A stretch of DNA of 57,782 bases from Scytonema tolypothrichoides VB-61278 (lineage in GTDB: Bacteria; Cyanobacteriota; Cyanobacteriia; Cyanobacteriales; Nostocaceae). Location of the stretch: positions 418,517 to 476,298 of the forward strand of contig NZ_JXCA02000022.1 of assembly GCF_000828085.3 (NCBI RefSeq). The letters run 5' to 3'. The position numbers and the translations under genes were made by a program. Every line of letters starts with the position of its first letter. Positions within the stretch are counted from its first letter, which is position 1. The notes under the pieces are model-generated. The model was not told the DNA's origin, made no database searches, and saw nothing but the letters and a program-made list of their open reading frames with translations. Positions 16,247 to 47,245 of this stretch are shown here, one piece after another.

Positions 16247-16808
16247 TAGAGAGAATCCTTTTACTTCTAGGTTACAAATTACGAAAGCACAGGCATATAA
16301 AATAGGCAGAAAATCAGCCTATATTTTGAATTTTTTATTGCTCTGTTATTGCCAAAACTAGTAATTATTTATCTGGGCATTAGAAATCAAGAATGGCTTT
16401 TTTTCAAAATTTCTCCAACGAATGTAGAGATCACTTAATTCAAACTGTAATTAACGCTACTGTCTATACAAAAATAAGCAATTTTCATAAATTGATCAAT
16501 CAAAATTCTTTTGATTGATTTGTCAAATTTTTAGATTTCTCTATTTTATTTTTCTCTTAGTTAAATCTAAAAAATATCAACATAAAAATATATCGTTGGA
16601 AAGATGTAAGATACCAAATATTATAAAAAATTTCTCTGAGCATTGATAGCAGTACTTCTGGCAAGACTTTTCGGATAAGCACTACTCATTTTCCTTGCTA
16701 TTTGGGAAAACTTAAAGGTAAAGAGGGAAAGGATGAATTTTCCCCTTTCCCCCTAACTGAAAAGTATTGGTACCTGTGTTACAAACAAAAAATACTACAC
16801 TCTACTTC
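16247..16808. other. AT-rich spacer, promoter region of the repeat-protein trio
   Basis: No gene is visible in this 562-nt stretch. It holds an 11-bp perfect inverted repeat, ATCAATCAAAA-TTC-TTTTGATTGAT (16495-16519), and the element at 16497-16539. The next gene on the right (aroG) points into it, so its 3' end is here too. Confidence 0.7.
16497..16539 (-). promoter_or_regulatory. 43-nt element shared with the scyA upstream region
   Basis: 36 of 43 positions are identical, without gaps, to 46243-46285. The common core includes TCTTTTGATTGA and TTGTCA (plus-strand reading); on the coding strand this gives TTTGACAAATCAATCAAAAG. It lies about 251 nt upstream of the start codon of the first Gly-rich gene. 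Confidence 0.6.
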
Positions 16809-17888
16809 CTACACCTGTCCTAAAGCTACCAAACTACGTTGATCGGGTGTAGACCAGCGACCAACGACTCTACCTAAAACTGACAATTCCTGAACCAATC
16901 GGTCAAACTTTTCAGGGGTCAGGGACTGAGGTCCATCTGATAGAGCCTTAGCAGGATTGGGGTGAACTTCAATCATCAATGAATCTGCACCTGCTGCTAA
17001 AGCTGCCATTGCCATCGGTGTAACGTACTCTGATTTCCCTGTACCATGACTAGGGTCAATCATGATGGGTAAATGTGTTAGCTGTCTCAACACAGGAATA
17101 ACTGATAAATCTAGAGTGTTACGAACATATTTGGAATCAAAAGTTCTAATACCCCGTTCGCAAAGAATCACATTTGGGTTTCCTGCTGCCAGAATATATT
17201 CTGCTGCCATCAGCCACTCATCAATCGTGGCGGACATCCCGCGTTTGATCAGCACAGGTTTATCTTGAGCACCCACTTTCTTTAGCAAGGAGAAGTTTTG
17301 CATATTCCTGGCTCCTATCTGGATCACGTCAGCAACCCTAGACAGTGCTGGTAAATCAGCAGCATCCATTAACTCTGTGATGATACCCAAACCGGTAGCT
17401 TCACGAGCTGCGGCTAACAACTCTAGAGCACTTTCACCATGTCCTTGAAATGCATAGGGTGAAGAGCGAGGTTTGTAAGCGCCGCCACGCAGAAACTTAG
17501 CTCCAGCTGCCTTAACGCGCTTTGCCGTTTCTACAATCATGGCTTCATTTTCTACGGAGCAAGGTCCAGCAACCAGTACAACAGGATGTTGTTCACCAAT
17601 GTAGACAGAACCATTTGGTGTGGGGACAACAACCTCACTAGCTTCTCCATGACGGAATTCTCGACTAACGCGTTTGAAAGGTCGCTGAATTCGCAAGACT
17701 TGCTCAATCCAAGGGCTGCTATTTTGTATCTGCATTGGATCTAGGGTGGCAGTTTCACCAATTAAGCCCAAAACTACTTTGTTGTGTCCGACACTTTTTT
17801 CCACAGTCAGACCCCAAGTGTCATGCAATTCTTGGCTGATGCGAGTAATTTCATCAGCAGGTGTACCATTTTTGACGATAATGATCAT
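16809..17888 (-). CDS. aroG: 3-deoxy-7-phosphoheptulonate (DAHP) synthase, class I-beta
   Basis: Condenses phosphoenolpyruvate and erythrose 4-phosphate, the first step to chorismate. The 359-residue protein has an N-terminal ferredoxin-like regulatory domain (residues 1-70, MIIIVKNGTPADEITRISQE) as in the Thermotoga enzyme, and a TIM barrel with VLVAGPCSVENEAM, FLRGGAYKPRSSPY, IQIGARNMQNF, PVLIKRGMSATIDEWLMAAE and IMIDPSHGTGK. The regulatory domain suggests feedback control by an aromatic amino acid. It is the last gene of the aromatic block in the scytonemin island, where a dedicated aroG is known from Nostoc punctiforme. A 218-nt spacer separates it from trpB. It is probably a pathway-specific copy in addition to a housekeeping one (inference). 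Confidence 0.93.
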   Translation of the reverse strand: MIIIVKNGTPADEITRISQELHDTWGLTVEKSVGHNKVVLGLIGETATLDPMQIQNSSPWIEQVLRIQRPFKRVSREFRHGEASEVVVPTPNGSVYIGEQHPVVLVAGPCSVENEAMIVETAKRVKAAGAKFLRGGAYKPRSSPYAFQGHGESALELLAAAREATGLGIITELMDAADLPALSRVADVIQIGARNMQNFSLLKKVGAQDKPVLIKRGMSATIDEWLMAAEYILAAGNPNVILCERGIRTFDSKYVRNTLDLSVIPVLRQLTHLPIMIDPSHGTGKSEYVTPMAMAALAAGADSLMIEVHPNPAKALSDGPQSLTPEKFDRLVQELSVLGRVVGRWSTPDQRSLVALGQV

Positions 17889-45998: not shown

Positions 45999-47245
45999 TG
46001 CGTCTACATATTCCCTGATTATTGGAGAGGCTACCAGTTATATTTCTCAGGCTGCACTCGCACACACAGCCTTAAGTACCCCTTATGTCACCATTTTTTC
46101 TACATTTTCACGACCCAGTTTGACGAACACTGGGAAAGGCGAGTGATCGCTTTTTCGTCAGTAAAAAAATTTGTTGCGAAGAAGTTAAACAATTGAGGCT
46201 GTGCTTATGGAAACAAGACTACAAAAGCTAGATACTTTACTGCAATGAAAAATCTTTTGATTGAGTTGTCAGATTTTTTGTTTGTACTAAATATGATATG
46301 TACGACTCTTTGAACAACTTTTCTCTACCTTTTGGTACTTTACATCTGTCATTCAGTTACTTTTTTGACATGTCTTAATTATAACTTCAAAGTAGAGTGA
46401 TCTAAGAAAAACTAAGGACAACCAGTGAACAGAAGCACAACAAATAGTGTTCATCGTATTTTTAATAAAAATTTAATGTTTTGTCTGATTCTGCTTGAGA
46501 AGTGGAAGAAATTCTAATGCTGTTGCAGCACAACGCCCTTTAGGTAGAAGTTTGCTTATCAAAAACACTTCTTTCGGTTCTACTAGAATCAATCTCAAGA
46601 TAGATAAGTATTAGCCAATACATATTTTGCTATGATTAGGGTATTACTTTTGACAGATGAACTTGTAAAATATCTTGTAGTTGAATTCAGAAAAGAGTAA
46701 ATTAAAAAAATTAGGTTAAATGGAAACAATTCAGCCATGAAAATCAAGAAATTTGTCTGCTCTTTACTAAAATTAAGTGAATGAACTGTATTGCGTGTTT
46801 TTAGTTACTATATTTTTGCACAGTACACAGTAGTAATACAGTTATTCATTTTGCAACTAAGAAGTTGATATGATTTCTTAAACTTATACTTGTACGAGGT
46901 AAAACTAGTAAAAATGTTTAAAAGGAAATATTCTGCTCATCGTTGATCAAGGCTAAGATTTATACTTGAATCTTTTCTGTCTTTGATTTTTTCACTGTCA
47001 TTTAACAAAGCGTTTAAGCAGGAGTACTGTCAGTTATCGTGCTTCAGGGTGATAAAAATGAATTTTTTTGACTTTTACATTAAGTTATATTAAGATACTT
47101 ATAGATTTGATAAATTCTCATTAGGCGACAGATAAAACGTAACACCAAATTTAAAAATTTTTGATAACAAGTCCCAACTACATTATAGTGCTAATTTATA
47201 CTTGGCTGTGAGGGCAGTAGAGGGTGATGAGTTTTGGTGAAAATT
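45999..47245. other. 1.2-kb divergent control region between scyA and the sensor kinase
   Basis: Very AT-rich, with no gene. It contains the element at 46243-46285 and should hold the promoters of both units. No other clear repeat or palindrome was seen. The length is unusual for this otherwise fairly compact locus. Confidence 0.7.
46243..46285 (-). promoter_or_regulatory. 43-nt element upstream of scyA, shared with the repeat-protein genes
   Basis: The coding-strand reading includes TCTGACAACTCAATCAAAAG. It corresponds gap-free to 16497-16539 (36 of 43 identical) and stands 245 nt before the scyA start codon, against 251 nt for the other copy. TGACAA resembles a -35 box, so it could be a promoter plus an activator site. 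Confidence 0.6.

Follow-up and report, generated by a model that had tools for sequence, protein, structure and literature searches.

A 45-nt promoter element common to scyA, trpE and genes for Gly-rich proteins as the predicted operator of a scytonemin regulon in Scytonema tolypothrichoides

The scytonemin gene cluster of Nostoc punctiforme is reported to comprise two main transcription units, beginning at scyA and at trpE (PMC8879130, with PMC7997468 and PMC2726228), and upstream of scyA lies a divergent kinase–regulator pair, Npun_F1277/F1278; when Npun_F1278 is lost, transcription of scyA is strongly inhibited (PMC7997468). A review of 2021 states that an ultraviolet (UV)-specific cis-element is still to be found (PMC7997468), one of 2025 describes the regulation as unexplored (PMC12157317), and in the accessible text of a comparative cluster study of 2009 the words promoter and motif do not occur (PMC2726228). 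The analyses presented here concern a stretch of 57,782 nt from Scytonema tolypothrichoides VB-61278 (the window, to which all coordinates refer) and, within it, a 45-nt promoter element upstream of scyA, trpE and a group of genes for Gly-rich proteins. We consider it probable, judging from sequence comparison, that this element is the operator of a scytonemin response regulator of the Npun_F1278 type, which would co-control pigment formation, tryptophan supply, and ScyD/ScyE-type and Gly-rich proteins.

The window shares with N. punctiforme a divergent kinase–regulator pair upstream of scyA (44127..45998, minus strand; NF035923, 1173 bits, over cut-off): a scytonemin sensor histidine kinase of the Npun_F1277 type (47234..49204, plus strand; NF045595, the family of Npun_F1277, 1060 bits, over cut-off) is followed by a response regulator of the Npun_F1278 type with an AraC-type helix–turn–helix (HTH) domain (49235..50101, plus strand; PF00072 and PF12833), the proposed binder of the element. 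A preliminary description of this DNA had placed an AraC-type regulator next to scyA; the gene that adjoins scyA is in fact the kinase, and the regulator lies beside the kinase, at a distance of about 3.2 kb from the start of scyA. The transcript starts of N. punctiforme, at scyA and trpE, match two of the three predicted sites in the cluster here, whereas the Gly-rich genes and remote ScyD/ScyE-family genes are additions to the known clusters. Two further systems are related in kind. OrrA, which acts at the mycosporine (mys) genes of Nostoc flagelliforme, is likewise a regulator that responds to UV and binds the promoter of sunscreen genes, but the pigment is another one (PMC12157317). The SigJ-dependent J-Box promoters of hormogonium genes, from related organisms of this group, likewise carry an element specific to one regulon, but the J-Box is a sigma-factor −10 element, whereas the scytonemin element is 45 nt long and lies upstream of the −10 box (PMC12188702). 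In the open-licence literature, as far as its text was accessible, we found neither an operator nor a regulon beyond the known clusters for Npun_F1277/F1278, no description of a 45-nt element (under scytonemin with promoters, cis-elements, response-regulator sites or AraC) and, in the Nodularia map of transcription start sites (PMC3610870), no start for scytonemin genes; no relevant open-licence paper linking scytonemin and glycine-rich proteins was found either. The operator and regulon predicted here are new, and their general kind is already known.

Positions 16497–16539 and 46243–46285 align without a gap, on the same strand relative to their genes, at 251 nt from the start codon of the first Gly-rich gene (Gly1; start 16246) and 245 nt from that of scyA (start 45998). 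Strand and distances are as first described, and the match itself is real, with identity at 35/43 rather than 36/43 positions. At up to three mismatches its core, TCTTTTGATTGANTTGTCANATTTTT, has two copies in the window (none in 100 dinucleotide shuffles) and exactly two in the genome of 7,893,269 bp, in which a reversed-pattern control found none; the match is therefore neither due to chance nor a dispersed repeat. The 43 nt belong to a larger promoter element of 45 nt. Its copy at scyA, the predicted scyA operator CAAACAAAAAATCTGACAACTCAATCAAAAGATTTTTCATTGCAG (46240..46284, minus strand), is kept upstream of scyA in other genomes, scores 57.9 bits with a position weight matrix and has E=5.5e-12 in its own genome with R1, the profile model used for genome searches (threshold E<=0.01); it is followed by the predicted −10 box TAGTCT (46216..46221, minus strand). 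The predicted operator of the Gly-rich genes (16494..16538, minus strand; 39.7 bits, R1 E=3.9e-8), which has counterparts in five genomes of the same genus and in other genera, is followed by TATTTT as the predicted −10 box of the Gly1 promoter (16471..16476, minus strand). The initial picture of two copies was incomplete, since it overlooked a third, weaker copy upstream of trpE (23801..23845, minus strand; R1 E=9.3e-5), a predicted operator with trpE-position counterparts in relatives and the predicted −10 box TACGCT (23778..23783, minus strand); this site scores 25.5 bits in the matrix scan of the window, and the next best place −8.6 bits.

Matrix and profile were trained on 51 distinct scyA-proximal sites of other genomes lying within three mismatches of a seed pattern, itself derived in part from the window pair. 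The profile recovers the Gly1 and trpE sites, both of which were excluded from training, the window pair having been included in the seed. Across the genome five sites reach E<=0.01 with it. Three precede scyA, trpE and Gly1, and the other two are on another contig, C9, each before a ScyD/ScyE-family gene; the sixth-ranked place is a partial match (E=0.058, 21/45 positions covered).

In most of the 80 named scyA loci that we compared from other genomes, a close match in the orientation of scyA precedes the gene, commonly by 230–300 nt. Where 1,100 nt or more of upstream DNA was available (74 loci), 67 loci contain between one and three sites above 15 bits. The scyA counts are in part built in, as the training set of the profile consisted of scyA sites near the seed pattern. 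The 51 training sites give a gapless alignment of 45 nt in which 14 columns are invariant, with the coding-strand consensus AAAGCR-AAARAATTGACA-N5-ATCAAAAGATTTTTCATTGCA, within which TTGACA is conserved; a −10-like box, TAN3T, comes 18–19 nt later. TAN3T stands at one single offset past the element in 48/51 scyA promoters (9 at the runner-up offset), which is also the offset of the window's scyA box, and 18–19 nt past it in 41/54 sites across five other target classes; the offsets of the window's Gly1 and trpE boxes recur in 19/30 Gly-class and 6/9 trpE-class sites. Considering that this spacing is fixed and that the element ends at the expected −35 position, its placement is that of an activator site, and a fixed position relative to the −10 box is as expected of an operator for an AraC-type response regulator. 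Compared directly with itself, the element scores best at an offset of 21 bp, or two helical turns, with CRAAARA/CAAAAGA (9.1 bits). Operators of the AraC/XylS type, such as araI1-I2 of pBAD, have two directly repeated half-sites spaced by about 21 bp, the proximal one of which reaches the −35 region. Read as a direct repeat, the present element would be alike in both respects but differs in half-site sequence, and the HTH of the window regulator is fused to a receiver domain, with no effector-binding AraC domain.

Multiple sites are frequent at scyA: among the 67 site-bearing loci, three sites occur in 28 and two in 6, with distances that are often near 125 or 250 nt. In many Nostoc (L025–L081; for instance G214:C1:1481156/1481281/1481406) the element is doubled or tripled, with 12 neighbouring pairs at 125 and 10 at 250 nt, spacings that amount to about whole helical turns. 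At a single locus (L016) the best match upstream of scyA is on the opposite strand (four mismatches versus seven), and two scyA loci (L042, L083) occur in records labelled Tatlockia sp. and Gracilibacteria, which are probably misbinned cyanobacterial contigs.

Distribution across the family follows that of scyA. With a cut-off of E<=1e-6, the element is present in 117/119 ScyA-positive versus 8/98 ScyA-negative genomes of the 217 surveyed, and the two ScyA-positive exceptions are near-misses (G018 at 1.7e-6, G202 at 1.3e-6). Two of the eight ScyA-negative carriers have broken scyA loci, namely a scyA remnant (G098) and a scyA with an open frame of 396 codons (G158); in the other six the site precedes a second trp locus, and a response regulator from the family of the window's is encoded divergently to it, with a same-family kinase as well in three. 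In four weaker ScyA-negative cases (G004, G040, G073, G213), from an inspection confined to best matches below E=1e-5, both kinase and regulator adjoin the site, and TrpC too was found in three. The regulators beside the site in these six and four genomes are 61–70% identical to that of the window. At 13 second-trp loci the corresponding values are 61–71% overall and 67–81% in the HTH region, whereas two full-length regulator paralogues from the window's own genome reach 53–59% and, in the HTH region, 56–59%. Outside the family, 8 of 13 element-bearing genomes were inspected, and the element precedes scyA in six of these and trpE in two. An AraC-type response-regulator gene lies close to element-bearing promoters in the window, at second trp loci and at loci outside the family. 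Given this co-location, the HTH similarity at the second trp loci and the effect of the Npun_F1278 mutation, the response regulator at 49235..50101 is most likely the protein that binds the element.

Second trp loci with their own copy of the element and a paralogous regulator, often with a kinase, recur in genomes that lack scyA (L265–L270, L272–L275, L327–L340). At several of them a small open reading frame (ORF) (KINNEQIEQILKAIIAGKYSWACVL) stands before the second trpC; Pfam matched nothing in it, and we take its likeness to HetP as a mere impression, which we do not claim. A second kinase gene of the scytonemin family, in most cases with in-frame stops, is also found away from scyA in G011, G036, G092, G098–G102 and G215.

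Which genes stand behind the element in relatives was surveyed in 30 genomes, chosen among those with matches. From at least 154 matches at E<=0.01 we took 60 regions, leaving out scyA-adjoining sites plus about twenty weaker or same-position ones (such as G125:C1:673396, G150:C3:3514249, G104:C1:4576848, G074:C1:4401290, G128:C1:6750445 and G192:C1:8940523); three of the 60 proved to be scyA, and 57 remain. The gene behind the site is trpE in 13 of these and belongs to a second trp locus in 6, to the Gly-rich genes in 20 (15 by BLAST to Gly1 or Gly3, five by reading of the N-terminus) and to the ScyD/ScyE family in 4, the gene in the two-site regions of this class (L215, L219, L228) having been identified only behind the best site. 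Small proteins with a PGGAFGIP motif follow in 5 regions (L212, L218, L222, L256, L258), as do proteins of about 215 amino acids with a leader-like start (L209, L214, L220, L229, L244); an acyl-CoA dehydrogenase is found in 2 (one by Pfam, one by likeness), and a pentapeptide-repeat lipoprotein and a glycosyltransferase in one each. The PGGAFGIP proteins, of 109–140 amino acids and with the element 197–217 nt upstream, are possible further members of the regulon. Two of the 215-residue proteins were scanned for PEP-CTERM and gave 15.6 and 20.5 bits against a cut-off of 20.7; the best reading is that PEP-CTERM proteins may be among the operator's targets. No ebo gene stood behind a site among the ORFs compared in the 57 regions, which fits the reports that eboE does not change significantly under UVA (PMC8879130) and that ebo induction is subdued (PMC7997468). 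Several target classes are conserved separately across genera, and the element is placed at both the scyA and the trpE transcript starts, as a scytonemin regulon predicts.

Gly1 (15440..16246; 268 amino acids, 37% Gly), Gly2 (14682..15248; 188 amino acids, 22% Ser, 7% Gly) and Gly3 (12542..14491; 649 amino acids; 15% Gly, 14% Ser and 11% Asn, with IGNGNW repeats) are all on the minus strand; none contains Cys and none matched a Pfam or NCBIfam family. A single-sequence fold prediction for the C-terminal 240 residues of Gly3 was discarded as too poor (predicted local distance difference test score, pLDDT, 38.5), and a 288-residue ORF antisense to Gly1 (15383–16249, plus strand) is probably an artefact of Gly codon composition. 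Relatives of Gly1 are present in 43 of the 217 family genomes and all 43 are ScyA-positive, against a base rate of 119/217 (Fisher p about 1e-13, uncorrected for phylogeny); at the genus level, 16/16 genera with Gly1 contain ScyA-positive genomes. A member of the window's own genus without ScyA over the cut-off (G023) also has no kinase, element or Gly1. Thirty of the 43 genomes with a Gly1 match were scored with the scyA-trained matrix, one locus per genome, and of these loci 16 have a site above 7 bits 220–370 nt upstream and two a weaker one (2–4 bits). That the Gly-rich proteins act in the sheath or anchor the pigment is plausible, solely on the basis of the shared element and the restricted distribution.

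The preliminary description had proposed that pigment and Gly-rich genes form one regulon, and had named many unrelated copies in the genome, or a lack of conservation upstream of scyA in relatives, as findings contrary to it. The genome holds the five sites listed above, the element is kept upstream of scyA in other scytonemin producers, and it also precedes Gly-rich genes in other genera; on these comparisons the shared regulon is well supported, with the restriction that the site stands before 18 of 30 Gly1-like genes rather than before every one, two of those weakly. Several observations weigh against the operator and regulon as we read them. Seven of the 74 scyA loci lack any site above 15 bits. 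Twelve of the 30 Gly1-like loci have no site in place before the gene, and 11 of these belong to two genera (g38 and g53) in which scyA promoters keep a recognizable site, so the link between element and Gly1 is not universal; in these genera the element at Gly1 seems to have been lost or never to have been present. Of the 13 trpE sites, five (L208, L210, L223, L248, L259) match only weakly and with a gap, their spacer being shorter (R1 E 4e-4 to 4e-3, ungapped matrix scores below zero), and 2 of the 57 regions (L236, L253) have genes without an evident link. An inverted repeat in the proximal half of the element scores 9.5 bits, slightly above the direct repeat, so that the reading in half-sites is not unique. 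Finally, the co-occurrence counts ignore phylogeny, and outside the family the regulators that accompany the element share only 59% identity with the window's in the HTH region, no more than the paralogues from the window's own genome. At three loci of genus g38 (L129, L137, L138), a site-like stretch of 11–17 bits with ATGTTA in place of TTGACA lies beyond the matched part of Gly1 and perhaps precedes the neighbouring gene.

The HTH values from outside the family bear on the alternative that the element is a genuine operator shared by a scytonemin regulon but is bound by another protein, be it a different AraC-type regulator or an unlinked stress regulator. The genome is rich in AraC-type and response-regulator proteins, the two full-length paralogues among them, and would offer candidates; yet the element adjoins this one regulator family at scyA, at second trp loci without scyA and outside the family (L284, L286, L290), and the Npun_F1278 mutant phenotype speaks for the linked protein. 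We regard a different binder as unlikely. Far less probable still is that the element is merely the promoter of an alternative sigma factor, a TTGACA-like box plus a −10 box with no activator site: TTGACA is conserved and TAN3T does follow at a fixed distance, but the former lies more than 40 nt upstream of the latter instead of about 17, conservation over 45 nt with a 21-bp direct repeat exceeds the length of a sigma site, and only five genome sites rise above noise. That the two first copies are relics of a repeat, mobile or dispersed, or stem from an intergenic duplication of recent date would account for a gapless match taken alone and is regarded as already refuted, given two genome copies at three mismatches and five by profile, differing flanks, target classes conserved separately across genera and a fixed spacing to the −10 box. 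A structured RNA leader, for which the predicted 5′ leaders of scyA and Gly1 (about 200 nt) would leave room, is equally hard to credit, since the element stands ahead of the predicted −10 box and would therefore not be transcribed, and no Rfam family matched in the window at gathering scores.

The window holds further genes of the scytonemin cluster. Downstream of scyA on the minus strand are scyB (42995..44071; NF035922) and scyC (42027..42983; NF035924), both over cut-off, followed at 28670..41860 by genes identified with NCBIfam (two for ScyD/ScyE-family proteins, scyF, eboA, eboC, a glycosyltransferase gene, tyrA-like, aroB-like and eboE), which we assume to be read as a single transcript. 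The trpE side, trpE-trpC-trpA-trpB with DAHP synthase (aroG), occupies 16809..23410 on the minus strand (NCBIfam, Pfam). Between eboE and trpE, at 24112–28096, genes for an SDR-like oxidoreductase, a MarR-like regulator and phosphoesterase-like and methyltransferase-like proteins, all under the NCBIfam cut-offs, are perhaps an insertion in the cluster.

Finally, considering the element as the operator of the linked response regulator, we suggest a mechanism in which UV-A or high light would lead the kinase (47234..49204) to phosphorylate the regulator, a dimer of which may then occupy the two half-sites of the 45-nt activator-type operator. Bound regulator would recruit RNA polymerase to the scyA, trpE and Gly1 promoters and to those of the two remote ScyD/ScyE-family genes, so that pigment assembly, precursor supply, ScyD/ScyE-type proteins and Gly-rich proteins would be induced jointly. 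A predicted 45-nt site with its −10 box and a list of targets would answer the questions of cis-element and direct targets that the reviews raise, and the element-bearing promoters offer a native promoter set for scytonemin production. The Gly-rich proteins, the remote ScyD/ScyE-family genes and the other small and secreted proteins are new candidates for the scytonemin system, which could explain how an insoluble pigment is deposited outside the cell. More tentatively, and as a possibility on which we would not insist, one UV-responsive operator may co-express pigment, tryptophan supply, extra ScyD/ScyE-type proteins and Gly-rich proteins, of which the last would make up the pigment-holding scaffold of the sheath, or modify it; if so, the pigment and the matrix that hosts it would be built in one programme.

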